Under the pieces are notes generated by a model. It searched no databases and had not been told where the DNA came from. It saw nothing but the letters and a program-made list of their open reading frames with translations. A stretch of 64,000 nt of DNA from Loktanella sp. (GTDB taxonomy: Bacteria > Pseudomonadota > Alphaproteobacteria > Rhodobacterales > Rhodobacteraceae), in contig JAFPBO010000031.1 in the NCBI GenBank assembly GCA_017390475.1, positions 1 through 64,000 on the forward strand, read 5' to 3'. The position numbers were made by a program, and so were the translations under genes. Below are positions 1-15,109 of this stretch, piece by piece. Each line of letters starts with the position of its first letter. The first letter of the stretch is position 1.

Positions 1-1224
1 ATCGACGTCGATATCGGGCGGCTCCTTGCGTTCCTTGCTGATGAAACGCTCGAACAGCAGATCGTTCTTGGCAGGGTCCACGGCAGTGATGCCCAGCACA
101 TAACAGACTGCAGAATTGGCGGCTGATCCGCGCCCCTGACATAAGATAGGCGGATTACACTGATGGCGGGCAAAGTCGATGATCTCGTGAATGGTCAGAA
201 AATATTGCGGAATGTCGAGCTTTGCGATCATCGCCAGTTCCTTGATCAGCGTGGCGCGAATTTTCGGCGGTATGCCTGCGGGATAGCGCGTGGCGGCCCC
301 CTGCCAGGTCAGCTCTTCCAGATGATCCTGTGCGCTGCGCCCTTCGGGCACGGTTTCATGCGGATATTCATAGGCCAGGTCGCGCAGATCAAACCGGCAG
401 GCATCGGCCACCTCACGACTGGCGTGGATCGCATGCGGCCAGTCCGCGAATAATTGCACCATCTGGGCGGGTGATTTCAGATAGCGTTCGGCATTGGCGG
501 CCAGTAGAAACCCCGCCTTGGCAATCGTGGTCTTATGCAGGATGCAGGTCATCACATCCTGCAACGGGCGGCGGTCAGGGGCGTGATAATGCACGTCATT
601 GGTGGCAAGGATCGACAACCCGTGCCTGAGCGCCAGCGCATCCAGAAAATTGATCCGCGCGCGATCATCACTGCGATAAAGATAGCTCGCCGCGATATGG
701 CGCAGCCCCGGCAAGGCTCGCAGCAGACGCGGCAGAGCGGATGCGAAATGCGCGAGATCCAACCCCGGCACAGCGATCAGCTGCACGCCCTCAGCATGGC
801 CGGCCAGATCATTAAGGTTTATGTCACAGGCCCCCTTGGCCTGCCACGCGCCATCCACATCATGCATCTTGCCTTTGGACAGCAGCGCACAAAGCCGCCC
901 ATAGGCAGCACGATCACGCGGATAAGCCAGAAACACATCGCCCGAGCGTAATTGCAGACGACAACCGATCACCGGCCTGATCTGCGCCTTGCGGGCCGCC
1001 GCATGCAGCCGGACCACGCCAGCCATGGAATTGAGATCAGCGCAGCCCAAAGCATCATAGCCCAGAGCCCAGGCCGTGCCTGCCAGATCGACAGCATCAG
1101 AGGCCCCGCGCAGAAAGGAAAAACAGGTCGTGACCCCCAGTTCCACGAAATCCGCCCGCGGATTGGGGGCAAAGCCGTCACCTTCCAAGGCTCTTTTCGG
1201 GTGCTGATGGTCATTCTGAGGCAT
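1..1224 (-). CDS. dnaE2: Error-prone DNA polymerase DnaE2, N-terminal part (truncated by window edge)
   Basis: This is the N-terminal 408 codons of a C-family DNA polymerase that performs translesion synthesis with ImuA and ImuB after DNA damage. The start is the ATG at 1224 (MPQNDHQHPKRALEG). The N-terminal PHP domain opens around residue 25 with FVELGVTTCFSFLRGASD, which is typical of DnaE2 rather than DnaE1. The reading frame leaves the window inside PDIDVD, the motif holding two of the three catalytic aspartates, so the palm, fingers and beta-binding regions are outside. It is the last gene of imuA-imuB-dnaE2 and starts 60 bases after the imuB stop. It is probably transcribed from the LexA-controlled promoter before imuA. 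Confidence 0.93.
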   Translation of the reverse strand, partial: MPQNDHQHPKRALEGDGFAPNPRADFVELGVTTCFSFLRGASDAVDLAGTAWALGYDALGCADLNSMAGVVRLHAAARKAQIRPVIGCRLQLRSGDVFLAYPRDRAAYGRLCALLSKGKMHDVDGAWQAKGACDINLNDLAGHAEGVQLIAVPGLDLAHFASALPRLLRALPGLRHIAASYLYRSDDRARINFLDALALRHGLSILATNDVHYHAPDRRPLQDVMTCILHKTTIAKAGFLLAANAERYLKSPAQMVQLFADWPHAIHASREVADACRFDLRDLAYEYPHETVPEGRSAQDHLEELTWQGAATRYPAGIPPKIRATLIKELAMIAKLDIPQYFLTIHEIIDFARHQCNPPILCQGRGSAANSAVCYVLGITAVDPAKNDLLFERFISKERKEPPDIDVD

Positions 1225-1235
1225 GACACCCCGGC

Positions 1236-1270
1236 TTCTTTTTTCCAAAAATACTCCCGCCGTAGGCAGC
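1236..1270 (-). repeat. Copy of dispersed intergenic repeat (between imuB and dnaE2)
   Basis: Read on the minus strand it carries the core GGCGGGAGTATTTTTGG followed by AAAAAAGAAG. It fills most of the gap between the imuB stop and the dnaE2 start. Seven similar copies lie elsewhere in the window. Confidence 0.6.
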
Positions 1271-1284
1271 GCAACCCAACCGCA

Positions 1285-2817
1285 TCACGCAAACATCCCA
1301 TGGACAAACCAGCGCGGATCACCGTCGCGCCCGTCTTCATGCAGACCTTCGCGGTAAAGCCATAGCCGCCGTCCCGCCTGATCCTCGACCTTGAAATAAT
1401 CACGCAGGCGGGTGCCGGGGCGGTCTTTCCACCATTCGGGCGCAATCCGTTCGGGGCCATTATAACGGACGACACGGTGGGTCTGACGACGCCATTGAAA
1501 TTGCGCGGGCGGGCCTTCGGGAACAGCGTAAAGCACGCGGATTTCCTCGGGATGATCGAGCAGCCGGATCGGGCGTTCATTGGCGGGCACAGGCATCAGC
1601 GCGGGGGGTGTCGCCAAGGCGGGCAAGCACGCCTCGGCCCGTTCAGGGATATGGCTTGCGCGCAGGATGGGCCTTGTCACGGCACGATCCCCGAAACGCG
1701 CCGTCAGCCGGTCCAGCAATTGCGACAGATGCAGATCGTCATCCGACCCGCCCGTTAGATTGGTCTGGATACCCTGCATCTGCGCCGGATCGCCTGCTTC
1801 CAGCGAGATCAGGTCGAAACCGAAACCGGGGTTGATCCGGTCCAGCCTGTCCCGGAACAGGCTGTGCAGATGCACAGGGTCACGTGACGGGGCGGACGTG
1901 GCGACATCCAGATGACTGACATCGCCATCGGTGCGATAGATTGTCAGATACAACCGCCGGCAGCCCTGCCCCGCCTGATGCAGCAGGTCACATAGATCGG
2001 CACAAAGCGCGGGCAGATAGGGGGTCGGGTCAAAAATCGGCTCGGCCAACCGGGTTTGCACCACAAAACGCGGCGCGGCATCGACGCTAGACACAGGTTC
2101 AGCAAGATTGCCCAGCGCCTGATCCAGCCGCAGCACCGGATTGGCCGCCAGCGCCGCCCTGGCGAAACGGCGGGTCAGCGACAGGCGCGGCACATCGATC
2201 AGCGCACCGATGGTTTTCAGCCCCAGACGGCGCAATAACAGCACCGTCTGCCCATCCAGCCGCAAACCCGTGACCGGCAGCGCGCCCAGTTTCACCGCCA
2301 CCTGATCGGCTGCACAGATCGCGCGCACCGACCCGTACCGCGCCAGCGCCCAGGCCGCCCCCCAGGTCGGCGCCACCGCCAAGCGCGATGTCAGACCCAG
2401 CAGAGACAATTGCGTCTCCATCTCTATCAGCATCGCGGCCTCACCACCCAGCAGATGGTCCGCCCCGGTGGTGTCCAGAATAATCCCGTCATCACCATCG
2501 CGCACTGTCCACGGACACCAGCGCCGCGCCCAGAGCACCAGCCGGTCCAGCGCCGCGCGATCCGCGGCCTGATCGGCATAGGCCACCTGCATGTCCGGGC
2601 AGATCGCGCGCATATCCACCACCCGCGATCCCGGCATGACTCCCGCCAACCGTGCCACGCGATTGGTGGCATGGACCACCGGTCCATGCTGCGCCGCGCG
2701 CGCCAGCACCATCGGTATATCATCCTGTGGCGCGTTGCCTTGCCGCTCCATCAGCCGCGTCCAGCGTTCGATCGCCAGTTGCGGCAACCAGATCGACACG
2801 ATCCGCCGCCCGGTCAT
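1285..2817 (-). CDS. imuB: ImuB, Y-family polymerase-like protein of the SOS mutasome
   Basis: A Y-family polymerase homologue of 510 aa that acts as a scaffold for DnaE2 and ImuA; ImuB proteins usually lack polymerase activity themselves. The chosen start is the ATG at 2817 (MTGRRIVSIWLPQLAIERW), because the N-terminal beta strand of the family begins here. A longer open frame to 2958 lies inside imuA and adds non-conserved sequence. The Y-family fold can be followed through VVHATNRVARLAGV, DGIILDTTGADHLLGG and the thumb-like region LGLKTIGALIDVP. The acidic residues of active Y polymerases are not clearly present. It overlaps the 3' end of imuA by 98 bases, so the two are probably translationally coupled. 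Confidence 0.9.
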   Translation of the reverse strand: MTGRRIVSIWLPQLAIERWTRLMERQGNAPQDDIPMVLARAAQHGPVVHATNRVARLAGVMPGSRVVDMRAICPDMQVAYADQAADRAALDRLVLWARRWCPWTVRDGDDGIILDTTGADHLLGGEAAMLIEMETQLSLLGLTSRLAVAPTWGAAWALARYGSVRAICAADQVAVKLGALPVTGLRLDGQTVLLLRRLGLKTIGALIDVPRLSLTRRFARAALAANPVLRLDQALGNLAEPVSSVDAAPRFVVQTRLAEPIFDPTPYLPALCADLCDLLHQAGQGCRRLYLTIYRTDGDVSHLDVATSAPSRDPVHLHSLFRDRLDRINPGFGFDLISLEAGDPAQMQGIQTNLTGGSDDDLHLSQLLDRLTARFGDRAVTRPILRASHIPERAEACLPALATPPALMPVPANERPIRLLDHPEEIRVLYAVPEGPPAQFQWRRQTHRVVRYNGPERIAPEWWKDRPGTRLRDYFKVEDQAGRRLWLYREGLHEDGRDGDPRWFVHGMFA

Positions 2818-3397
2818 AGGTGGCGATCCATGCGCCGGGTTTCGACTGTCGCGACCGGAACAGATCGACCGCCCAACGTGGTGCGCCGGGGGCCAGAGCA
2901 TCCTGCGGATGCTGTGCCGAGGGACAAGCCGCAATGCGCCAGCGGTCGCGCGCCGCACTTAGATTCGGGCTGGCGGCACGGCGGATCAGCCAGCAGGGGA
3001 CCGCTACCGCCTCTGACCTGAGCGCCAGCCGCTTGGTCGCGGTGAAATCCAGTGCCGCAGGATCGCCCCAAATCTCGCCGATCACAGCGCCTAAGGCCTG
3101 ACAACGTAGCCCTTCCTCCATCGCCCAAAGCAGATCGGCCGCACGCGACAGGCTGACCATGATCAGCGGCCGCGTCATCCTCATACCTGCCAGAGACGGA
3201 CCGCCGGTTTCCTTGCGCGACAACCGGTCCTGCACCCATAAAACCGGCCGTTGCCCGGCAGGCAGAGAGGCCAGCACAAATCCCAGCACAGCCGCATCCC
3301 AGGCCGTTTCGGCAAAAGCCTCTGACAAAACAGGCTGCGCCAGCGCCGGACGATCCCTCTGCCCTGCCGAAACTTTTGGTATATGAAGCAAACTCAT
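2720..3397 (-). CDS. imuA: ImuA, RecA-like accessory protein of the SOS mutasome
   Basis: A 225-aa RecA/SulA-related protein that is the first gene of the imuA-imuB-dnaE2 cassette. The length fits the family. Recognisable segments are AAVLGFVLASLPAGQRPVLW (RecA-like core strand and helix), the middle stretch LIMVSLSRAADLLWAMEEGL and ALGAVIGEIWG, and RLALRSEAVAVPCWLIR. The start at 3397 lies 30 bases from a GTTC-N7-GTTC LexA box, which supports DNA-damage induction. Its C-terminal end overlaps the N-terminus of imuB in another frame. Identification rests on the characteristic sequence pattern and gene order. Confidence 0.88.
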   Translation of the reverse strand: MSLLHIPKVSAGQRDRPALAQPVLSEAFAETAWDAAVLGFVLASLPAGQRPVLWVQDRLSRKETGGPSLAGMRMTRPLIMVSLSRAADLLWAMEEGLRCQALGAVIGEIWGDPAALDFTATKRLALRSEAVAVPCWLIRRAASPNLSAARDRWRIAACPSAQHPQDALAPGAPRWAVDLFRSRQSKPGAWIATYDRAADRVDLVAATGDRTLDAADGAARQRATG

Positions 3398-3589: not shown

Positions 3590-3679
3590 GGAGATGTGGC
3601 CGAGTGGTCGAAGGCGCTCCCCTGCTAAGGGAGTAGGCGGGAAACCGTCTCGAGGGTTCGAATCCCTTCGTCTCCGCCA
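3590..3679 (+). tRNA. tRNA-Ser (anticodon GCT)
   Basis: The 90-nt sequence folds as a class II tRNA. Acceptor strand GGAGATG pairs with CGTCTCC (one G-U pair), followed by discriminator G and an encoded CCA. The anticodon stem CTCCC/GGGAG encloses loop CTGCTAA, giving anticodon GCT for AGC/AGU codons. A long variable arm follows, and the T loop reads TTCGAAT. The discriminator G and the variable arm are serine identity features. The gene stands alone between the imu cassette and the exported-protein operon. Confidence 0.97.
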
Positions 3680-3788: not shown

Positions 3789-5462
3789 CTAATCCGGCAA
3801 TGCTTGTGGCCAAGGCGCAGTTCCCAGCGGCTGCATATCCGGGAAAAACTTCGCCATATTCCAGCTTGATCGGGGGCCGATGTCGCTGATGCGGAGAGAC
3901 ATTCCATCTTGCAGCGGGGCGGTAGTGAGGATGCCGGATATCTCTGCCTGCTCAAACAGCAGCCTGTGCAAATCGGATTCTGACACCCCGCCGTGCAAGC
4001 TGAAATCAGCGTGGGTGATCAGCCCATAACCGGACAGGTCCCAGCCCAGTGACTGCCAAAGCGATCCGAATGCTGCGCCTTGTCCGGCAAAGGGCGCGCC
4101 GGGCAGTCCGTACCAGCCCGAAAGTGCCGGCAGATTGGCGATCGCCCAGAATCTGCCCGACCAGACAAGATAGCGGCCTATCGCCGGATCAGGCAGGCTG
4201 GCCAACAGATGGTATTCCTGAATTTGCCAATCATGCAGCTGCCCGCTGCGCCCGGTGGCAGTGATCCGATGTGGCAGCGCGGCAAGGCCCGCCGGCCGGA
4301 TGGCGGCAAAGGGATCTCGTGGCCGGATCGGCAAGGCAATGCCACCAAGCGGGTCTCTTGCATAGATGATACCCGGGAACTCCGCGATACCGAAGTAAAT
4401 CCACTGATCCGACTCGAATACTGCCACCGAGGCGTTGGCAAGCGCGGTATAGCGGTTCTGCGCCCCGGCTAGCCCGGTAAAATCGAGCGTCATGCCCCAG
4501 GTTGCCAGACCTTCGGTCGGAATATGGGTCCAGTTGACCTCACCCGGATCAAAGCCATCGGGCATGTTCCAGACAGGATCGCCCGGCATCCGGGCGCTGC
4601 GGGTCTGGCCCCAGAATGGCGCGACACCAGCGACCTGCTGCCGGATCAGCCAGTCTGACGATATCTCATCCACATAGAACGGATGGTAGCGCAGGATGCC
4701 ATTGGTGCTGTCCTCTTGCCCGACGACACCGCTGGAAATGACCATCTCGTATGGTCCTTCAAAAGTGACGGCATCGCGCAACAGCCCCGCGATCCGCGCG
4801 GGCACCGAGACACCACTGGCATCCGATATGATATAGGGCGCTGAAAAGCTGGTTTCGTCCACATCAAGATCAGTCCAATCCCAGCCTTCACCTACAGCAT
4901 CGGTCAGGGCGAGACAGGGTAGCCCGAAACATTGCGCCTCTGCCGCCTCTGCTGCGGGCATGATACGCCGCGCGACCGCAACTGGAGAGGCGGCCATATA
5001 TTTGTCGCTGAAAAACACCCAACGCCAGGTGACATGCGGTGCGGGATCAGCCTCAGCAGGCGTGAACAGCCCGTCATAATTTGCAGCCACGTCGGCCTGC
5101 AGAACCGGGCCGAGATTGAATCGGGTGATCTCGACCAACCGATAGGGCGACAACCAATCCTCATCCGCCGGAACCTCGTAGCTGGTGATCCGGTAGCGAA
5201 CATGCGGCAGCGGCTGTTCCAGCGCGTCAATCGCCAGGATCGCCTTTTCCGCGTCGGACAGCGGATAATCAGCCTGCAGGATGCTGCCTTGCTCGGGATG
5301 AGGAAAGCGGTGCGGACCGTTCCACTCCTCTGTCCAGAAGTAACCCGGTGCAATGGGCAGGAATCCGTCGGCCCGTGCAAAAGTGCCGATTGTGTCGTCC
5401 GCCTTGGCCAGGCTGACATTCATCAGACAGGCCAAGACCACTGTCACCGAGCGGATCAGCAT
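3789..5462 (-). CDS. Exported protein of unknown function, last gene of the VWA operon
   Basis: A 557-aa protein with a signal peptide at residues 1-21 (MLIRSVTVVLACLMNVSLAKA). The start at 5462 is preferred over the upstream open frame because it opens the signal peptide and lies five bases after the stop of the preceding gene. The mature part is rich in Trp, Pro and acidic residues, has one close cysteine pair (CFGLPC), and shows no membrane segment or catalytic motif that I recognise. The composition suggests a beta-rich periplasmic or surface protein. It is the last of five genes spaced by overlaps or gaps of at most five bases. I cannot assign a family, so the function is unknown. Confidence 0.8.
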   Translation of the reverse strand: MLIRSVTVVLACLMNVSLAKADDTIGTFARADGFLPIAPGYFWTEEWNGPHRFPHPEQGSILQADYPLSDAEKAILAIDALEQPLPHVRYRITSYEVPADEDWLSPYRLVEITRFNLGPVLQADVAANYDGLFTPAEADPAPHVTWRWVFFSDKYMAASPVAVARRIMPAAEAAEAQCFGLPCLALTDAVGEGWDWTDLDVDETSFSAPYIISDASGVSVPARIAGLLRDAVTFEGPYEMVISSGVVGQEDSTNGILRYHPFYVDEISSDWLIRQQVAGVAPFWGQTRSARMPGDPVWNMPDGFDPGEVNWTHIPTEGLATWGMTLDFTGLAGAQNRYTALANASVAVFESDQWIYFGIAEFPGIIYARDPLGGIALPIRPRDPFAAIRPAGLAALPHRITATGRSGQLHDWQIQEYHLLASLPDPAIGRYLVWSGRFWAIANLPALSGWYGLPGAPFAGQGAAFGSLWQSLGWDLSGYGLITHADFSLHGGVSESDLHRLLFEQAEISGILTTAPLQDGMSLRISDIGPRSSWNMAKFFPDMQPLGTAPWPQALPD

Positions 5463-5467
5463 TTGTT

Positions 5468-6193
5468 CTACTCGACCAACCGCGCAACAAAGGGAGTCTG
5501 CGTCTTGCATTGCAGGCCGCCAAGGATGGCATTGACGGCGGCGTCACCGGCATTGGATGAAATGCTGTAGTCAAACACGCTGTTGCCCTGCACTTCGGTC
5601 GGGCTGACAAGGGTCAGGGTCCAGATCACGCTGGCGGCGGTCGCGCCATCGCTGCTGGACATCGCCTCATCTGCCAGAACACCGCGCCAGCTGCGCCGTC
5701 CTGTGCTGGACCAGCGCACCATGCCGGCAGATTCCGCCATCAACTTATCAGGGTGGAAACTGCCGCCCCAGTTGATTTGTCGTACCGCGCTGCTCATCGG
5801 TGGTGCGCCGATAAAGGCGCCCAGCATTGGGCAGGCCGAGGCGTCTGTAGCCCCTGCCCTGATCTGCCAATTGCCATCTTGCGGAGTCATTTCATCGAAC
5901 AATTCCAGCGGGCAACTGCCCTGCCCACCATATAGCAAATCGAGATCAGCGGGGGCCATCGCGGACCAGCCCAGCTTTCCGTCCGGGGTGCGGACGAGTG
6001 TCTTATCCTCTGCCCCGTCCTCGATGACCACGGGCGCGGTCGCGGCCACCTCTTCCAGCGTCAGATTGCTGACGCGGCAGGTGCAACCGCTGTTGGTGCA
6101 GGTGGCGATCTGGATTTTCTGTCCGGTCTGGGCCATCACTCCGCCTGTCATGGCAGCAAGAATGGCCAGCGAAGATAACATATATCGGCGCAT
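5468..6193 (-). CDS. Exported cysteine-rich protein of unknown function, VWA operon
   Basis: A 241-aa protein with a signal peptide of about 21 residues ending in GGVMA. The mature N-terminus has a three-cysteine cluster (ATCTNSGCTCRVSN), and further cysteines occur in GSCPLEL, SACPML and LQCKTQ. Six cysteines in all suggest disulfides in the periplasm. The motif GGSFHPDKLM resembles GGSFTPTALM inside the neighbouring VWA protein, which points to a shared small domain. It starts three bases after the stop of the VWA gene. No enzyme motif was seen and no family is recognised with confidence. Confidence 0.8.
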   Translation of the reverse strand: MRRYMLSSLAILAAMTGGVMAQTGQKIQIATCTNSGCTCRVSNLTLEEVAATAPVVIEDGAEDKTLVRTPDGKLGWSAMAPADLDLLYGGQGSCPLELFDEMTPQDGNWQIRAGATDASACPMLGAFIGAPPMSSAVRQINWGGSFHPDKLMAESAGMVRWSSTGRRSWRGVLADEAMSSSDGATAASVIWTLTLVSPTEVQGNSVFDYSISSNAGDAAVNAILGGLQCKTQTPFVARLVE

Positions 6194-6196
6194 GGT

Positions 6197-9100
6197 TTAC
6201 TCCGTATTTGAGGGGCCCATCAAAAGGTCGAGCAATTGGTCAGTGCTCATCCCGTTTTCTGGGGTGATTTCGATAAAGCTGGGGTCGGTCGGGGTTGCTG
6301 TCTCGCTTTGGGCCGCCTCTGTCGCACCCTGCACGATGGCGTCGGCCATGAAGCCACCACCATCCGCCAGTTGCATCGGCGCAAAGACGACAGGGGCCGG
6401 GCAATCGCGGGTCACGATGCCGTCACCTTCGAAATAGCGGCATTGCGGCGTGGCAAAATCCAGCGTGATACTATCGCAGCGGGCCATCAGCATTAGATCA
6501 GCCGTGCTTTGCCCGGTTTTGCCAAAAGATATAATTTCAAACTCCAGCGGCGTCTCGGAATCCGTGACGTTGCGCAGGTCCTGCCCATTCGCCGTCGCTG
6601 TGACCGGAGCGATCATCCGATAGTCCCCGCCTTCCGGCCCGGTCAGAGCGGCGGAAATGAAACAACCCGTCTCGAACTGGGTGCGGCCTGTCGGGGTGAC
6701 CGTGATTTCTGTGGCACCGGCGTCGGGCGCCACTGCCTCAAATTCAGTGGCGCCGAACATTTCGCCATTCAGGTCGAGGAAGCGGACTTCATAGAAACCG
6801 GGCTGATCGGGCACCGGCAACACCTGATCCTGTCCGTCCATCATCCTTGCGCCATCGATCGAAAAAATTGCCGGGCCGTCGCGGTCGAAAGTATCATGTA
6901 CGGATATGGTTCCCCGGAACCCCTCTGGCGCAGTCAGCATCACCGGAAAGTAGCCGCCCGATCCGGCGATGATCGGATCGTCGGGCAGGTCCATTGATAC
7001 CTCATCGAAGCCGTAGACAGGTGCCAGCACCACCTGCTGCACCGTATTGCCCGGCATGATGGTGACGTTGCGGTTGCGGTATTCGCGGAACAGGGTTTCG
7101 GCGCGGATGTCATAGGTGTTGCCGACCCCCAGAGGGTGATCCTGCGCTGACATCTCGCTCATATGGACTTGTCCGTCCCGATAGGCCGCATCCTCGCCTT
7201 CAATCAGGATGATCCCCACCTGGCGCATCTCGGACCGGTCCGCACCAGCAATTGACACGCTGACTGGGCGGGTTTGCGCGCCAGTGACCGGCTGGCCGCG
7301 TTCGATCAACGGCGCAATCATGCTGGCGGTCAGTTTCGTCGTGATATCGGCATCATTGAAATGGCACAGGCTGCCCAGATCTGAGGTGTCATAGCAGGCC
7401 CCGTCGCTGTCGATCCACATCCGTGGGTTCAGGCGCAGTTCTTCCCCGTCGGGGCTAAACAGCGACATGCTGGGCATATCCGTCTGGGTCGGCGTGGCAG
7501 ACGCACTCTGGAACTCCGGAGCTGTCACGCCCCAGCCTTCCGGCAAGGGCACGGTGACACCGCTGGCGGGATCGGTCCATGAACAGACCATTTCTGCACA
7601 GGCAAAGACGATAGTGTCATCCTGTTCCAATGCGCCGTGATCTTCGGGCACTGGGCCGTAAAGCTGGTCTTGCATCATGGCCACGGACGGCAGCGGCAGG
7701 GATAACGGCCAAAAGATCACGGGCACGCTGTTAGCGCCCGATGCCATCGTACCGGAAAAGCCGTCCGAAAACGGGGCGAGTGCCAGGACAAAAGGCTCAG
7801 GTGCAACAGAAGGCAGGCTGAAGGTGACGAACAGATAGCCTTCCTCCTCGGTCACGTTGTCGAGCGCTGCCTCGCTGCCCGGCGCACCCGTCATCAGCGC
7901 AGTAGGGGTAAAGCTACCACCATAGCGGGTGTCCTGCGATGTCACCGTCACATCGACCATGACCATCGGGTCTGTCGGCGCACCGGCAGGCGCATCGCGC
8001 GGGGCGACGGCCAGCACCTGCCACGACCCTTCCAGACCCAGCGCACCGTGATCCTCCTCGGCACTGGTGTTGATCCGGACGGTAAAATCATTCACCTGTC
8101 CCGGAAAGATCGCGACATCGGCGGATAACGTGACTTCACCTGGCGCATAGGCCGTGACGCGCCAGTTGCCCGGCTCGAACGTGCCGGAAATGACCGGACC
8201 AGTATCCATCGGTGCCCAAGCCTCTGGCGACATGTCAGCATCTAGCGGCACCGCGTCCCACGTCACATCCGATTGCGGCACTTCTGGCGGCAGGCGAAAA
8301 GTGGCAGGAACGCCCGGCAAGGTGTCGGCCCCTTGCGTTGCAGCAACGGTGGCACCGATCGTTATCGGACGGCGGGTGATGATGGTGTCGCGGTCATCCG
8401 GATGGCCACTGCGTCGCAGGACCAGATCATAGACACCCTCACGATCGGGCATCGCCAATGTGACACTCAGGTTCCCGCCGGCACCTTGATAAAGGGCGGC
8501 TTCGTTGCCAATTTTCCGACCATCCGCATCAGAGACGCCAAACGCATAATTCACCGCATAGCCACCATCCAGCGCAAGTGCGATCCGCTCTCCCGGCAAG
8601 GCGTGGTCTGGTCCCACAATGCTGACGACCGGGTTTTCGACAACCTCGAAACTTTGTTCGTCGATAATGACATAGTTGCTGTTGCGGAGCACCGCGACGG
8701 CCAACCGGTACGTACCGGGAGGCAAGGCGTTGAACGCCGCTGCGCGCTGGCCCGGATCCCGGCTGGTGATAAGATCATCGCTGAGAACCTGATCGCGTGT
8801 CAGCACCCCTTCTGGCCCTGTGGCGATGATCGTATACGGGGTGCCGCCCAGATTGCCGGTACCGGGATGGGTGATCTGATAGGGCAGTCGCCCCCGCATG
8901 CCCGCCTGAACCTGTCCAAGAGGCGGAATGGCGGCAACCATCTCTGTCCCGGTAAATGGCACCTGAATATAGCCACAGCATTTGCTAAGCGATACTTGTC
9001 GCTCGGCCCGGCCCTCGGCCCCTTCGGCAATGATCAGCCAATCGCCCAACGGCAGTTCGGTGGACAAGCCCTGCAGGTTCTGCTGCCTGCCCTCTGTCAC

Positions 9101-9862
9101 CCCAAGGTCAAGGACAGTGCCATCCGCCCCCTCAGCCCGCCATATCATCGCCTCGACGGGTCTGCCGCTGCCGGTGTCCTGAAAAACAAAATTCTGTGCA
9201 AGCAGGGCGGTCGCCTCTTGTTCCGGTTCAGGCGTCAGCGGAGGGGGCGTGGCCGCGCTGACTTGCTGCAACGCCTCTGCCAGTTCCGCACCCGAATTGG
9301 TCTGGAACAGCATCCCGCCAGTCTGGTCAGTGATGCAGGATAAGGATTCCACCTCGACCTCGGTAAGCCCGAAGCCGACGACATGAGCGCGGATGTCGAT
9401 GCCTTCAGCAGCAAGGCCGGCAGCCAGTGCGCAAGGGTCACCTTCGCAGTTTTCCAACCCGTCAGTGACAAGGATGATATCCGCGGCCTCCGCCGCGGGC
9501 GGGATCTGGTCGCGCGCCATGGCCAGGCTGTCAGTCAGCGGCGTCATGCCGCGTGGCATCAGCGCGCGCAGGCGGCTTTCAAGCGATCCTGCTACCTCGC
9601 CCATCTGTGCGATTACTTCGATATCGGCGCAATCGCCGCGCCGGTTATGGCCGTAGGCGATGACGGACAAAGGTACCGCCGTGTCGCGACTGGTAAAATA
9701 ATCACCCATCACGTCGCGAGCGACCTCGATCCGGGTCAGATCGCCTTCTACACGGTTCCACATCGACCCCGAAGCGTCGAAAACAAGCACTGCAACGCGG
9801 TCCGCCATTGCAGGCGCGCCAGACAGCATCAAGGCAGTCAAGGCAGGGATCAGGCGGGTCAT
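6197..9862 (-). CDS. Large exported von Willebrand factor A domain protein
   Basis: A 1221-aa protein with a signal peptide (residues 1-20, ending PAMA). The VWA domain follows at once, at about residues 22-205. Its MIDAS metal site is complete: DASGS at 29-33, the threonine in RGMTPLTDS, and the aspartate in VTDGLENC. After the VWA domain come about 1000 residues of apparently beta-sandwich repeats (for example the stretches around EDHGALGLEGSW and PEDHGALEQDD) with scattered cysteine pairs. No C-terminal membrane anchor is seen. VWA domains usually bind protein or matrix ligands through a metal ion, so a scaffold or adhesion role is inferred. The start overlaps the stop of the upstream DUF3137-like gene (ATGA). 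Confidence 0.88.
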   Translation of the reverse strand: MTRLIPALTALMLSGAPAMADRVAVLVFDASGSMWNRVEGDLTRIEVARDVMGDYFTSRDTAVPLSVIAYGHNRRGDCADIEVIAQMGEVAGSLESRLRALMPRGMTPLTDSLAMARDQIPPAAEAADIILVTDGLENCEGDPCALAAGLAAEGIDIRAHVVGFGLTEVEVESLSCITDQTGGMLFQTNSGAELAEALQQVSAATPPPLTPEPEQEATALLAQNFVFQDTGSGRPVEAMIWRAEGADGTVLDLGVTEGRQQNLQGLSTELPLGDWLIIAEGAEGRAERQVSLSKCCGYIQVPFTGTEMVAAIPPLGQVQAGMRGRLPYQITHPGTGNLGGTPYTIIATGPEGVLTRDQVLSDDLITSRDPGQRAAAFNALPPGTYRLAVAVLRNSNYVIIDEQSFEVVENPVVSIVGPDHALPGERIALALDGGYAVNYAFGVSDADGRKIGNEAALYQGAGGNLSVTLAMPDREGVYDLVLRRSGHPDDRDTIITRRPITIGATVAATQGADTLPGVPATFRLPPEVPQSDVTWDAVPLDADMSPEAWAPMDTGPVISGTFEPGNWRVTAYAPGEVTLSADVAIFPGQVNDFTVRINTSAEEDHGALGLEGSWQVLAVAPRDAPAGAPTDPMVMVDVTVTSQDTRYGGSFTPTALMTGAPGSEAALDNVTEEEGYLFVTFSLPSVAPEPFVLALAPFSDGFSGTMASGANSVPVIFWPLSLPLPSVAMMQDQLYGPVPEDHGALEQDDTIVFACAEMVCSWTDPASGVTVPLPEGWGVTAPEFQSASATPTQTDMPSMSLFSPDGEELRLNPRMWIDSDGACYDTSDLGSLCHFNDADITTKLTASMIAPLIERGQPVTGAQTRPVSVSIAGADRSEMRQVGIILIEGEDAAYRDGQVHMSEMSAQDHPLGVGNTYDIRAETLFREYRNRNVTIMPGNTVQQVVLAPVYGFDEVSMDLPDDPIIAGSGGYFPVMLTAPEGFRGTISVHDTFDRDGPAIFSIDGARMMDGQDQVLPVPDQPGFYEVRFLDLNGEMFGATEFEAVAPDAGATEITVTPTGRTQFETGCFISAALTGPEGGDYRMIAPVTATANGQDLRNVTDSETPLEFEIISFGKTGQSTADLMLMARCDSITLDFATPQCRYFEGDGIVTRDCPAPVVFAPMQLADGGGFMADAIVQGATEAAQSETATPTDPSFIEITPENGMSTDQLLDLLMGPSNTE

Positions 9863-10953
9863 GTGATGTCTCCTAAAGGTAGCGAAAGGGCAGCGTTGAT
9901 ATAGCGGTTCAGAATGGCAAGGTCGGATGCAAAGGCCGGGATCAGCACGTCAGGGTCGAGCTTTTCCCAATAGGGCGGCGGTTCGAACGCGCCGTCGAAC
10001 ATCGACAAGGGTGTCAGCACGACCAGTTTACCGGGCAGGATCACCACCCAAGGCCGCAACCCTTCGCCTGCGGGCACTTCGGTCAGGGCATTTACGGCAC
10101 AGCGTGACTCGCGTTCCAGACCCGAGAACCCGTGGCGCAATGCGGGGGTGACGCGCGATATATCGCCAAAAACAGTGTAACGTGCGTCAAAATCGGCATC
10201 ACCGGTCGGGATCGGTTGCGAAACGTCGGTCAGCTTTTGCGCAGCCTTGGCGATGGCAGAGGCATCTTCCGACATGATCGTGGTAACGCTGTGTGATTGT
10301 GCTGTCTCGGGCAACGCGATTTCGACCATCACAAAGGTCAGACCATCGGCTTGCTTTTCTTTGAAATTGCGTTCGGCACCAAACATCAGGCCAATCCGGC
10401 TAATCGCGACCATCCGCCCGTCGCGCTGACCGGTCAGGTAAAGATCGACCGTGACCTTGCGGATCTGGTGAAACAGCGTCACCGCCATCAATCCATCACG
10501 TGTGACGACAGGATCGGGATCAACGGCAAAGCCCATCAGATGACGGGCCAAGGCATCCACGATCGCGGTTCTGGTGGCGGCGCGCGGTGCCTCGCGGGCT
10601 TTGCTGAAGAACAAGAGCAATGCAAAAAACGCCGCACCGGACGCCAGCGCCAGCCCCAGCAGCAAATTCCCCATCAGGCCCCAGCCCAGCGCTAACCCAG
10701 CCAAGGCCGCGCCGCCCGCAGCGATCTGCAAAAAACGCTCGGCGCGGGCGACATGCGCCGCGCGGTCCCGGTCCAGGGTGACCAGCACCGGTGCCAACTG
10801 CGCCTTAAGAACGTCATGATCCATGCCGGGCAAGGCCGCTACGACTGGGCGCGGCTGATAGGGCTGACCGAACTGCATGCCGCGTTCCAGCGCAGAATAG
10901 CGTCCAAGACCGCGGACAATGCTGAACCTTTCTGATGCCATCTGTGCGGTCAC
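9859..10953 (-). CDS. Membrane protein resembling the DUF3137 family
   Basis: A 364-aa protein with two closely spaced membrane helices at about residues 75-115 (GGAALAGLALGWGLMGNLLL, then GLALASGAAFFALLLFF). A soluble C-terminal domain of about 240 residues follows. Pattern features resembling DUF3137 are VMVEIALPE, the stretch GDADFDARYTVFGD, and a C-terminal strand pair around WVVILPGKLVVL ending in a helix (LAILNRYINAAL). This assignment is from recall of the family pattern and needs an HMM check. It sits between the polytopic membrane gene and the VWA gene, overlapping both by four bases, so all three are probably co-translated. Confidence 0.75.
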   Translation of the reverse strand: MTAQMASERFSIVRGLGRYSALERGMQFGQPYQPRPVVAALPGMDHDVLKAQLAPVLVTLDRDRAAHVARAERFLQIAAGGAALAGLALGWGLMGNLLLGLALASGAAFFALLLFFSKAREAPRAATRTAIVDALARHLMGFAVDPDPVVTRDGLMAVTLFHQIRKVTVDLYLTGQRDGRMVAISRIGLMFGAERNFKEKQADGLTFVMVEIALPETAQSHSVTTIMSEDASAIAKAAQKLTDVSQPIPTGDADFDARYTVFGDISRVTPALRHGFSGLERESRCAVNALTEVPAGEGLRPWVVILPGKLVVLTPLSMFDGAFEPPPYWEKLDPDVLIPAFASDLAILNRYINAALSLPLGDIT

Positions 10954-11951
10954 GCCTGCGCCTCGGGTGAGACCGGATCAGACATCCCGCGCGCGCCGCT
11001 GCGTCGCCCCGTCCAGGCCAAGGCCTTTTCACCGATCTTGCGGAATCTGCCGGATGCATTGGCCAGTTTCGCCTGCCACGCGGGATCAGGCACCTGCCCA
11101 TCGATCAGTTTGAAGTAAGCCTGCAAGATGCAGGCCAATGCAAAAGGTTCGATCAGGGCAGCCTTCAGCGCCCAAGCGAATAGCAGCGCGAAAACCACCG
11201 CCGCGGCGCCCGTTTCGCCCGGCAAAAGCCAGACGACAAGCCCCGCAGGCACCAGCATCAGCAGAAAGATCATAAAACTGACCAACCAGACAATCGCCGT
11301 GACCCAGGCCGCATTCACCAGCATCGGGCGCGCATTCTGCGCATAAAGCACCAGGGCGGTGCGGGACCCTTCAAACGGGTTTTCAGCGCGGGTGGCAAAA
11401 CAATAAGCCAGCATCACCTCGTCCAGCAGACCGACAGCCACCCGCAGATAGGCGCGTACGATCCCCATCAGCTTGTCCAGGCCGGGGATCGGCAGGATGG
11501 AAAACAGCCCTTGCAGCAAGCCAGTGACAGCGTTGATCACGCCTTTAACCAGTTGATCGACGCCAAACAGCACAGAGGCGGTGCCAAAACGCTCCGCTAC
11601 CATGGTCCGGGCATAGGCGATCTGCCCCTGACCCGCCGGAATGTCGCGGCCTTGCAGCAGTTCCACCATGACGGCGATATGGCCCGCCTTGACCATATAC
11701 AGGATATATTCCCGCAACAGATACAGCACCGCTGCCGTCAGCCCAAAACCGGCAAAAGCACCATAAAAACTATAGGCAAGCGCCGTATCCTGTTCCCAAA
11801 AGCCGCCGATCCCATAGCCGATACCTGCCCCGGTACCGGTTGCCAGCACGTAGGCCACAGCAATGCCGATATAAACAGCTAGACGAAAAACAACGAATGG
11901 CGCAGTCCGTCGCAGCAGAGATAGAGCGGTGGAAGTCTTGAAATCAGCCAT
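10950..11951 (-). CDS. Polytopic inner-membrane protein, first gene of the VWA operon
   Basis: A 333-aa integral membrane protein. Hydrophobic segments can be seen near residues 15-50 (FRLAVYIGIAVAYVL and the Gly-rich GTGAGIGYGIGG), 58-85, 130-150, and three more between 215 and 275 (AAWVTAIVWLVSFMIFLLML, then LVPAGLVVWLLP, then AAVVFALLFAWALKAALIEP). About six segments are likely. The C-terminal 50 residues are charged and probably cytoplasmic. It is the promoter-proximal gene of the operon, with a 16-bp palindrome 60 bases upstream and a LuxR-type regulator divergent from it. No family is recognised. Confidence 0.8.
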   Translation of the reverse strand: MADFKTSTALSLLRRTAPFVVFRLAVYIGIAVAYVLATGTGAGIGYGIGGFWEQDTALAYSFYGAFAGFGLTAAVLYLLREYILYMVKAGHIAVMVELLQGRDIPAGQGQIAYARTMVAERFGTASVLFGVDQLVKGVINAVTGLLQGLFSILPIPGLDKLMGIVRAYLRVAVGLLDEVMLAYCFATRAENPFEGSRTALVLYAQNARPMLVNAAWVTAIVWLVSFMIFLLMLVPAGLVVWLLPGETGAAAVVFALLFAWALKAALIEPFALACILQAYFKLIDGQVPDPAWQAKLANASGRFRKIGEKALAWTGRRSGARGMSDPVSPEAQA

Positions 11952-12010
11952 GGATCATCCTTTTCCCTAAGGTTAACGGCGCGAAACTACCGGCCATGCC
12001 CACAATAAAA

Positions 12011-12026
12011 ACTACCATCTGGTAGT
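12011..12026. promoter_or_regulatory. Perfect 16-bp palindrome, candidate LuxR-family operator
   Basis: ACTACCA, TC, TGGTAGT forms a perfect 7-2-7 inverted repeat. The half-sites resemble those of las/lux boxes (ACTACCAG...CTGGTAGT) but the centre is two bases shorter. It lies in the divergent region 60 bases upstream of the membrane-protein operon and 149 bases upstream of the LuxR gene. That the neighbouring regulator binds it is an inference. Confidence 0.6.
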
Positions 12027-12174
12027 GTTGGGCATGATTGTGAGCGCCATCCCTCAGGACTTTTCAAAACGGTCGGGACGACAGCATCGGCTGCGCCTGA
12101 CGTGCTAAATTGGTAGACGCAGAAAACGACCTGTGCCAATATCAGGAAACCCATAGATTTCAGAGGCAAAATGT

Positions 12175-12915
12175 TTGACTTGCCGCATCCTCGATGATTT
12201 TCTTGATGAGTTATCGCAGCTCCGGCCGTCGTCGCAGCAGACGCTGACTGATGGCATATGGGCGTTGACCACTGATCATTTTGCGCAAAACGGGTTCGAC
12301 AAGCTGATCCTGATCGATCAGCGGGCAGACCATATGATGCTGCTGTCCACACTGCCCGCCGACTGGGTCACCCGCTACCATGAAGAAGGCTATGCACAGA
12401 TTGATCCGTTTTTTAGCTATTGCGGCACCACATATCACCCGGTCAGCACAGGCGTTGCTTATGCCGACCAGCACCGCGGGCTGAACCAGGCACAACAGAA
12501 CCTGATCAGCGAAGCAGCAGAATTCGGGATCAAGGCCGGCTTTTCCTCCACGGTGAAACGATTGGGGCCGGATGGCTTTGCCGGGTGGAACATCGGATCG
12601 TCATTGTCCCGCAAAGAGGTGGACAGCCTGCGCCGCGATCGCGAGGCCGCATTGCGGCTGGCTGCACATCACGCCTATAATTGTCTTGCGCTGGAACAGA
12701 ACAACGCTTCGGGTGGCCCGCTGTCAAGCCGGGAACGGCAATGCCTGACGCTGCTGGCGCAGGGCCAACGAACCAAGGAAATCGCGCGCAGCCTGTCCCT
12801 GAGCGGGGCAGCGGTCGAGCTTTATACCAGAAACGCCCGGAGCAAATTGGGTGCAACCACACGCGAACAGGCCGTCGCGATTGCGATTGCCCGTGGCTTA
12901 TTGGGCGATGAATAG
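12175..12915 (+). CDS. LuxR-type quorum-sensing regulator (solo), TTG start
   Basis: A 246-aa LuxR-family transcription factor. Residues 15-165 look like an autoinducer-binding domain (DWVTRYHEEGYAQIDPFF carries the expected W, Y and D-P). Residues 183-245 are a GerE-type helix-turn-helix (LSSRERQCLTLLAQGQRTKE). The position of the later conserved tryptophan of AHL receptors appears not to be Trp (HPVSTGVAY), so the ligand may differ. The TTG at 12175 is chosen because AGAGG at 12162-12166 is eight bases away. An ATG at 12171 is in another frame and stops after eight codons. No luxI gene is in the window. It is divergent from the VWA operon. Confidence 0.85.
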   Translation: MTCRILDDFLDELSQLRPSSQQTLTDGIWALTTDHFAQNGFDKLILIDQRADHMMLLSTLPADWVTRYHEEGYAQIDPFFSYCGTTYHPVSTGVAYADQHRGLNQAQQNLISEAAEFGIKAGFSSTVKRLGPDGFAGWNIGSSLSRKEVDSLRRDREAALRLAAHHAYNCLALEQNNASGGPLSSRERQCLTLLAQGQRTKEIARSLSLSGAAVELYTRNARSKLGATTREQAVAIAIARGLLGDE

Positions 12916-13144
12916 GACGGCACCATTATCGCGCCATATCCGTTGACGAAAACAGGGTGATACAAGGATAAAGATCAGGTGGTTTGGGTGTCGCTTAGCC
13001 AGAGATGATCAAACATCGTTCACCGCTCGTTTCTCGAACCGTGGATCATGCCACTAGGTGAAAATCAATTGGTCCTGTGCCTAGATGTGTTCAATAGCAA
13101 CGCAGTCACAAACCAGCGCTGGGCCGAAAACGATCAAATTGATA

Positions 13145-15109
13145 TTACGCAGTGCGCTCCGCTTTTTCCAACATGATTGTGTGCTTTTCCTCGGCGCGCA
13201 CAGCGACCCAAAGCAGGTCTGCGGCGCTGTCATTGAGCGGAGTATATTCTAGCGGAAGTTCTTTCATGATGGACAGGATTTCAAAGTAGTCGAATTCCTT
13301 GCAGGCAAGCAAAAGCCGGTTCAACACCATGGTCAATTCTGCCATCGGAACGGATACTTCTGACGCGGTCATGATCCGCGCATGCTGGGTCGGTCCCGGA
13401 TGGTTTCCGATCAGCAATTCCTCATAGAGCTTCTCGCCCTTGCGCAGCCCGGTAACACAGATCGGAATATCGCCTTTTTGCGGATGAACCTCGTCCCGGT
13501 GATCAACGATATACGGGGTCAGTCCATGCATCTTGACCATGCTCAGCGCCAGATCAAGAATCTTCACCGGATCGCCCATATCCAGCACGAAAACATCGCC
13601 GCCTTTTGCCATTGCGCCAGCTTGGATCACCAGTTGCGCAGCTTCGGGGATCGTCATGAAATAGCGGTTGATATCACGGTGCGTGACCGTGATCGGGCCT
13701 CCATTTGCGATCTGTTCCTGAAACTTAGGAATGACCGAACCGGATGATCCCAACACATTCCCGAACCGCACCATGGAAAACACGGTTGACTTGCTTTGCT
13801 GGGCTTTAGCCTGGCAAATTAGCTCTGCCAGGCGCTTGCTGGCCCCCATGATATTCGTCGGGCGCACTGCTTTGTCTGTCGAAATCAGGATGAAATTCTC
13901 AACACCGCATTTTTCTGCAGCAGAGGATATTTCCAGCGTGCCAAAGACATTGTTGCGGATTCCTTCGACCACATTCTCTTCTACCAGTGGAACGTGCTTA
14001 TAGGCCGCCGCGTGATAGATTGTCTGTACACGGAAAGCCTTGATCACGACTTCCAGCCGCCGCCGGTGCTGGACAGATCCCAGCAAGGGAATGATCCGTG
14101 GCTTATGTGTCATCCGCGCGACGCTCGCTGTCAGCTCTGCTTCGATGGCGTAAAGTGCAAATTCCGACATTTCGAAAAGAACCAGCATTTCGGGTTCCTG
14201 GGTCAGGATTTGACGGCACAGCTCGCTACCGATCGACCCACCGGCGCCAGAGACCATGACGACCTTACCAGTGATATTCCGCCGTAGCAGCTCGGAGACA
14301 GGCTTGACCGGATCACGGCCCAGAAGATCTTCTGCCGAAACAGTCCGTAGCTCAGAGATCTTTGCCTTCCCACTGACGATGTCGGACATGCCGGGAATGG
14401 TTTTGAATTCGACCTGAAGAGACGCAGCCTCTGCCAGGACCCGCCGTTTACGCTCCCGCCCCATGCTTGGCGCTGCAAGCAACACGATCTCTGCGCCGGT
14501 CTTTGCGACGATTTGAGGAATCTGATCTGGGCAATGGACCTTGAGGCCACCGATGTTGAGATTGTGCAGCTTTTCGTCATCATCCACCAACGCGATCGGC
14601 AGATATTCCTTGCCATGTGTCAATGCGTTCAGCACCTGCAGCCCGGCCTCTCCTGCACCGAAGATGATGACAGGACGTTTGACCTGCGTGGACTGGTCCC
14701 GGAACAATTGGCGCACAACAAACCGGATTCCCCCCACTGACAAGAAAACAAAAACGGCATTGATAATCGGGGCCGACCGCGGGATCGGCGCAGCAAAAAT
14801 CAGGCTCGCAATGTAGATGGTCAAACCTGATGCCACCGCACCTTTGAGAACGGTGGCGAGGACGCCCCCGGTCAGATATCGTACCGAATTCCGATACAAT
14901 CCAAGCATGCTGAACACCGCCAAGGTGGCCGGGACCGACAACATCAGCGTCAGCCAAACCTCTGGCAACTGGAGCAGATGCAGACTTTCCGTACGGAGAT
15001 ACACGGCCGCAATGAAAGAAAATAATATCACACAGGCGTCGACCGTACGTTGCAGGGCAACCTTTTTCCCGCGACTCAAATTCGCAAATCGGGCAGCATA
15101 ATCAGCCAT
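13145..15109 (-). CDS. Membrane-bound nucleotide-sugar 4,6-dehydratase (CapD/WbpM/FlaA1 family)
   Basis: A 654-aa polysaccharide-biosynthesis protein. About four membrane helices occupy residues 20-125. A first Rossmann domain follows (VIIFGAGEAG near residue 147), then the catalytic SDR domain starting at VMVSGAGGSIGSELC near residue 287. The active site reads STDKAVRPTNIMGASKR, with Met in place of the usual SDR tyrosine and the lysine four residues later, as in WbpM/PglF-type UDP-GlcNAc 4,6-dehydratases. The substrate is therefore probably UDP-GlcNAc, at the cytoplasmic face, for surface glycan or glycoprotein synthesis. No glycosyltransferases are adjacent. The start at 15109 gives MADYAARFANLSRGKK. 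Confidence 0.9.
   Translation of the reverse strand: MADYAARFANLSRGKKVALQRTVDACVILFSFIAAVYLRTESLHLLQLPEVWLTLMLSVPATLAVFSMLGLYRNSVRYLTGGVLATVLKGAVASGLTIYIASLIFAAPIPRSAPIINAVFVFLSVGGIRFVVRQLFRDQSTQVKRPVIIFGAGEAGLQVLNALTHGKEYLPIALVDDDEKLHNLNIGGLKVHCPDQIPQIVAKTGAEIVLLAAPSMGRERKRRVLAEAASLQVEFKTIPGMSDIVSGKAKISELRTVSAEDLLGRDPVKPVSELLRRNITGKVVMVSGAGGSIGSELCRQILTQEPEMLVLFEMSEFALYAIEAELTASVARMTHKPRIIPLLGSVQHRRRLEVVIKAFRVQTIYHAAAYKHVPLVEENVVEGIRNNVFGTLEISSAAEKCGVENFILISTDKAVRPTNIMGASKRLAELICQAKAQQSKSTVFSMVRFGNVLGSSGSVIPKFQEQIANGGPITVTHRDINRYFMTIPEAAQLVIQAGAMAKGGDVFVLDMGDPVKILDLALSMVKMHGLTPYIVDHRDEVHPQKGDIPICVTGLRKGEKLYEELLIGNHPGPTQHARIMTASEVSVPMAELTMVLNRLLLACKEFDYFEILSIMKELPLEYTPLNDSAADLLWVAVRAEEKHTIMLEKAERTA

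Follow-up and report, generated by a model that had tools for sequence, protein, structure and literature searches.

The locus considered here raises the question of what an orphan LuxR-type regulator might control when it is divergent from five packed genes for membrane and exported proteins, the regulator being the one locus protein that Pfam and NCBIfam name with confidence. The locus occupies positions 3789 to 12915 of the window, by which we mean the entire stretch of 64,000 nucleotides from Loktanella sp. (contig JAFPBO010000031.1). In this report, we describe a palindrome between the regulator and the operon that is found again before related genes elsewhere in the genome and in a second species. 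We favor the reading that a small LuxR regulon serves an envelope apparatus with a surface or ligand-capture role and has its main operon at this locus; the chances that this complete statement is right are about even. The genes are designated A to E in the order of transcription, and the features are as follows.

12175 to 12915, plus strand: orphan LuxR-type regulator with the Pfam domains Autoind_bind and GerE and a TTG start.
12011 to 12026, no strand assigned: 16-bp palindrome ACTACCATCTGGTAGT, the predicted operator, 59 bases upstream of gene A.
10950 to 11951, minus strand: gene A, a 333-residue membrane protein with a predicted CysZ/CTL-like fold.
9859 to 10953, minus strand: gene B, a 364-residue DUF3137-like protein with membrane segments near residues 83-115.
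6197 to 9862, minus strand: gene C, a 1221-residue protein predicted to be exported, with an N-terminal VWA domain that bears a metal ion-dependent adhesion site (MIDAS) motif and a long C-terminal region.
5468 to 6193, minus strand: gene D, a 241-residue protein predicted to be exported, whose conserved C-terminal domain spans about 135 residues and in which two cysteines, C121 and C229, are invariant across the alignments.
3789 to 5462, minus strand: gene E, a 557-residue protein predicted to be exported, which matches no known family.

The coordinates confirm the five tightly packed minus-strand genes of the preliminary description, with overlaps or gaps of at most 5 bases. A and B overlap by 4 bases, as do B and C, and gaps of 3 and 5 bases separate C from D and D from E, respectively. 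The start of gene E was placed at the ATG at 5462, in an open frame that begins at 5510. The regulator gene is divergent from the operon, as had been stated, and is separated from gene A by 223 bases. The earlier count of two membrane and three exported proteins was upheld, with membrane segments in A and B and signal-peptide-like N-terminal segments in C, D, and E; these calls are those of a simple hydropathy scan judged by eye rather than of a signal-peptide predictor.

The whole genome was searched for the palindrome with up to two mismatches, and two places were found, one in the window and the other on contig C3. The second lies 62 bases before an operon for an OmpA-PAN protein and D, the only D paralogue of the genome. 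At this locus (L168, 7810-11291), D comes after the gene for an 882-residue protein with OmpA and PAN domains, the palindrome lies upstream of both, and the 17-kb stretch contains no GerE match. With the pattern reversed as a control, 3 and 4 matches were obtained in the same genome, so that two matches alone are not unusual; it is the location of the second match that is. When 56 genomes of the genus were searched, the palindrome turned up with one mismatch or none at five places, two in the genome of the window (G000) and three in G383. The same two genomes are the only ones among the 56 with this LuxR or its close orthologue, and all five places are at loci with module genes.

The first place in G383 (locus L221) lies between the LuxR orthologue (55% identical) and genes B-C-D-E. 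The identities to the window are 66% for B, 30% for D, and 51% for E, and the C orthologue is 91% identical over residues 21-202 and 58% identical over residues 382-1198. Since the order of LuxR and B-C-D-E is kept in another species, the arrangement is not attributed to chance. This C gene (L221, 10824-14210) has the appearance of a mosaic, with no local match listed between residues 202 and 382. The second place in G383 lies 53 bases before an unlinked A (62% identical) that adjoins a GerE-hydrolase regulator, and the third precedes an outer-membrane β-barrel gene that adjoins a LuxR-like gene interrupted by a stop and a second VWA-D pair. A LuxR-like gene of this kind is at L220 (10302-11093), where the frames of the adjoining VWA-D pair are open. 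At four of the five places, the site is separated from the start codon by 59, 62, 53, and 56 bases.

Places with two mismatches numbered 47 and were found in 32 other genomes. Examination of 32 of these 47 (29 short loci and three more among six larger regions) revealed nearby no relative of A, B, C, D, E, OmpA-PAN, or this LuxR, and one of them has another GerE gene. The link between LuxR and the operon that the preliminary description had drawn is supported by a palindrome common to different genome positions and species and by the repeated linkage of LuxR and VWA genes. The operon, the orthologue, the shared sites, and the recurrent linkage are supported by the sequences themselves. It is very likely that the predicted site controls these genes, and likely that this LuxR is the protein that binds the palindrome.

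The regulator matches Autoind_bind (2.1e-19) and GerE (1.4e-15), both above the Pfam cut-offs, and no luxI gene is adjacent; these features are common to the LuxR solos of the main text of PMC4338825. Under the stricter definition given there, in which no cognate synthase occurs anywhere in the genome, one luxI has to be considered as a possible cognate synthase: the only one detected is on another contig (C42), adjoining its own GerE gene. The protein retains eight of the nine conserved residues numbered in PMC4338825 (W57, Y61, D70, P71, G113, E178, L182, and G188, from alignments to LasR, RhlR, and relatives judged by eye), and the ninth, W85, is replaced by threonine. For other solos, the main text of PMC4338825 raises the possibility that the loss of such residues reflects ligands other than N-acyl homoserine lactones (AHLs). 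Because of this threonine, we do not file the protein as a canonical AHL receptor, and with the sole detected luxI on another contig beside its own GerE gene, the earlier suggestion of control by cell density was not borne out. The protein further differs from the solos of that main text in having an exported VWA operon as its predicted target and a site common to unlinked loci; a term search of the same text returned neither VWA nor von Willebrand. Among the 56 genus genomes, the close orthologue (55-56% identity) was found in G383 alone. More distant relatives (32-35%) are present in G383, G102, and G367, where a VWA gene lies divergently beside each of them. The genus has five LuxR matches at E ≤ 1e-20, and every one of them is divergent from an operon that includes VWA.

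Conservation does not extend to the operon as a whole. With the window's own genome included in each count, gene A was found in 37 of the 341 genomes of the order, and B and E in only 3 apiece, one of the three being weak in each case. A four-row profile of D detected 38 of the 341, some by the C-terminal domain only. A near full-length C was found in G383 only among the 56 genus genomes; in G361, a contig end matches residues 1021-1217 at 70%, and 27 of the 56 have some C match, mostly to the VWA part. The five-gene order expected in many Rhodobacterales therefore fails in general, B and E each being confined to 3 of 341 genomes. Five-gene synteny was rejected as the defining feature because of the rarity of B and E and because A frequently stands by itself.

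The pairing of D with VWA and a GerE regulator is more widespread. Among the 11 D loci that score at least 80 bits, there are ten in which VWA adjoins D and a GerE regulator lies no more than 6 kb away, two of the ten (the window and L128) being rows of the D profile itself; the GerE labels rest on our own profile from six regulators, including the LuxR of the window. The exception is the own-genome paralogue L168, where D is paired with the OmpA-PAN protein. All 22 D regions (the window, L128, and 20 more, taken mostly as the stronger of 42 listed places) have VWA in 11 cases and GerE in 13, and neither is present in L177, L179, L180-L182, L184, L185, or L187. With 8-17 GerE genes per genome in the 11 genomes checked (3.2-4.8 Mb), we estimate that chance proximity is to be expected in a few percent of cases. 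From these sequences, the conserved unit is GerE regulator, VWA, and D, to which A, B, and E have been added in some lineages.

Gene A was rejected as an operon-specific gene, since 55 loci were found in the genome contig collection, among them loci of Betaproteobacteria (Advenella and Paracandidimonas) and of one metagenome-assembled genome of Wenzhouxiangellaceae. Of 91 tree rows of A, 61 have neither VWA nor GerE, some being on short contigs; where both A and VWA are present, GerE is also found within 8.5 kb in 18 of 23. The VWA-linked copies are scattered among lone copies in the tree, which is unresolved at its base, with the A of the window on a long branch. Copies of A often adjoin apparent housekeeping genes. 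A 312-residue membrane protein beside D-VWA in L172-L174 was considered as a relative of A but found no support (hhalign probability 0.2%). The LuxR/VWA arrangement is also found on plasmids of Phaeobacter and Tritonibacter. In L057, L068, and L070 of Paracandidimonas and Advenella, a VWA gene and a GerE response regulator accompany an A that is directly followed by a relative of the N-terminal part of E, which suggests transfer between classes. On a Peteryoungia plasmid, the A-VWA-D cluster of L122 (12396-13934) contains an IS3-family transposase gene between VWA and D.

The regulators beside these VWA loci have in common a GerE-type output and differ in the sensor head. Autoind_bind and GerE are both above the Pfam cut-offs in the LuxR of the window and in L120, L121, L171, and L186; for L128 and L170, the autoinducer-binding match is below cut-off. 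An alpha/beta hydrolase above cut-off is combined with a GerE match in L172, L173, L178, L183, L219, L125, and a second L128 regulator. Among the hydrolase regulators, GerE exceeds its Pfam cut-off only in L219 and L125, and in L169 both domains fall below. Pfam identifies the hydrolase in L174, L175, and L176 (just below cut-off in the last), and the GerE part was detected with our own profile. Several GerE-hydrolase regulators keep GxSxG at the expected place; those of L178 and L128 lack it. The coordinates of three hydrolase regulators are 12670-14448 (L128), 10328-12019 (L219), and 1222-3069 (L125). A Pfam receiver domain joined to GerE is found in L093, L115, and L126, and beside these, as in more loci according to our own profiles, stand a histidine kinase and a molybdopterin-domain protein. 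In L116 and L117, GerE follows an unrecognized N-terminal half, whereas in L114 and L122 an AraC regulator is accompanied by a hydrolase that has no GerE match. The GerE-hydrolase regulators and the molybdopterin-domain, histidine kinase, and response regulator sets stand beside VWA-D or A-VWA genes, as LuxR does here, but they occur in the relatives and not in the window operon. We tentatively consider an undescribed, chemically gated envelope module in which an exported MIDAS-VWA or OmpA-PAN protein is kept together with the D barrel, in which A, B, and E are optional, and in which the sensor joined to a shared GerE-type DNA-binding head is swapped among an autoinducer-binding domain, an alpha/beta hydrolase, and a phosphorelay. 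If so, D or C, acting outside the cell, may handle the same signal molecule.

The VWA domain named in the preliminary description was recovered through C's own MIDAS-type motif, DASGS, and through the relative of C in L128, which is 30% identical over residues 1-485 and matches VWA_2/VWA (PF13519 at 1.7e-9); no Pfam VWA model matches C itself at E ≤ 1. The MIDAS pattern is present in 35 of 38 VWA rows, among which a gene may be represented more than once. In a sequence search of solved structures, C gave weak matches alone, the best at 0.0035. The DUF3137-like label also proved right, by way of the relatives of B rather than of B, which matches no Pfam family at E ≤ 10: DUF3137 (PF11335), for which Pfam gives no function, is above cut-off in L095 (1.1e-18) and L106 (6.1e-16) and below it in L094.

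In the proposed mechanism, LuxR would sense a small molecule (an AHL or another ligand) and bind ACTACCA-N2-TGGTAGT, centered about 60-70 bases before the target start codons. Binding would switch on the A-B-C-D-E operon and the OmpA/PAN-D operon elsewhere in the genome; DNA binding, the ligand, activation in preference to repression, complex formation, and the adhesive role are what we infer here. The exported C would hold a protein or polysaccharide ligand via its MIDAS-type VWA domain. D, probably a disulfide-bonded small β-barrel, would work with C or with its OmpA-PAN replacement, and the transporter-like A and B (DUF3137) would form the inner-membrane part of any such complex. In the presence of the signal, the apparatus would most likely build a surface or adhesion layer or else capture an envelope ligand. 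A surface or ligand-capture role is put forward because of the MIDAS motif, the exported nature of the proteins, the OmpA-PAN replacement, and the outer-membrane barrel among the targets.

The main rival, which we regard as unlikely, keeps the regulon but assigns it to the uptake or handling of a small molecule, with D as a lipocalin-like carrier, A as the membrane transporter, C, B, and E as accessory proteins, and LuxR or other GerE sensors detecting the same substrate. The fold model of D (pLDDT, the predicted local distance difference test score, of 80.5) is a small β-barrel that may weakly be called calycin-like, the match falling within the range of common arrangements. The model of A, folded from 69 of the 75 rows found (six plasmid-record copies were left out), weakly resembles CysZ (3tx3, 6d9z, and 6d79) and the choline transporter-like CTL1/PNS1, at 8-14% identity, with no significant Foldseek match and no Pfam match; A differs from both in being co-encoded with an exported VWA protein. 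Such fold matches are not proof of transport, and A lies near D only in the window and L128 among the 22 D loci, which argues that transport through A is not essential.

It is improbable that the palindrome belongs to another regulator and that the divergent LuxR is a mere neighbor. This alternative draws on the other LuxR/VWA loci L128, L170, and L171, which lack the TACCATNTGGTA core, and on L211 of G379, a genome without this LuxR and one of the 32 two-mismatch places examined, where a perfect 14-bp core is present with no module gene near; the 14-bp core alone is thus insufficient. Against it, a palindrome is the kind of site that one would expect a GerE-type dimer to bind, and the sites with at most one mismatch keep company with the LuxR orthologue in the same two genomes. 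A single operator for all LuxR/VWA loci was rejected, as none was found. The motif TAAGGWWWTCC is present in the intergenic regions of L128, L170, and L171 and is treated only as a lead, because 5 other places were found in 130 loci (2.26 Mb). At or near the D/regulator junction, a near-palindrome, ATRACCAGNNNTGGTYAT, occurs in L172 (8999), L173 (8906), L174 (8960), and L175 (8044). These four are all hydrolase-regulator loci, and the motif, chosen by eye on three of them, is absent from the other 126 loci; it is a candidate operator for the hydrolase-type regulators.

Less probable still is an operon for stress or envelope maintenance with a VWA protein acting like those of the BatA or CglB group. 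C resembles these proteins in its DASGS motif and predicted export, and has weak NCBIfam similarity to BatA (2.8e-6) and CglB (E 0.01). Its scores of 26.6 and 14.9 bits, however, are far under the curated cut-offs of 380 and 200, respectively, its C-terminal region is long, and it pairs with D; for A, B, D, and E, neither Pfam nor NCBIfam has a family that scores above cut-off.

The least probable of these alternatives is recently acquired cargo with no coordinated function beyond shared transcription, as might be supposed from a tRNA-Ser(gct) at 3590-3679, about 110 bases past the end of E, and from the absence of A in the other same-genus genomes first sampled, but G383, of the same genus and outside those samples, has A, B, C, D, and E, and its unlinked A keeps the site. 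The tRNA is a possible insertion point; no tRNA was found in 12 of the 13 related loci scanned. An anti-phage defense system was rejected, since no PADLOC model matched A-E at E ≤ 0.01, the helix-turn-helix of LuxR matching PADLOC CARF3 weakly (0.0017).

In an incomplete literature collection, searches on VWA with LuxR in Roseobacter, Phaeobacter, or Rhodobacterales, and on LuxR-hydrolase fusions and DUF3137 with VWA, returned nothing. A string of hypothetical genes has become a testable regulon with a defined regulator, a 16-bp site, and targets in two species. Both in the order and on roseobacter plasmids, exported VWA-D pairs recur beside GerE regulators with varied sensor heads; this recurrence suggests a surface behavior, so far unstudied, that chemical signals switch. 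The locus is flanked in the window by genes at 1285-3397 that resemble ImuB/ImuA-type repair genes, and by a gene at 13145-15109 that is presumably a CapD-like polysaccharide epimerase.

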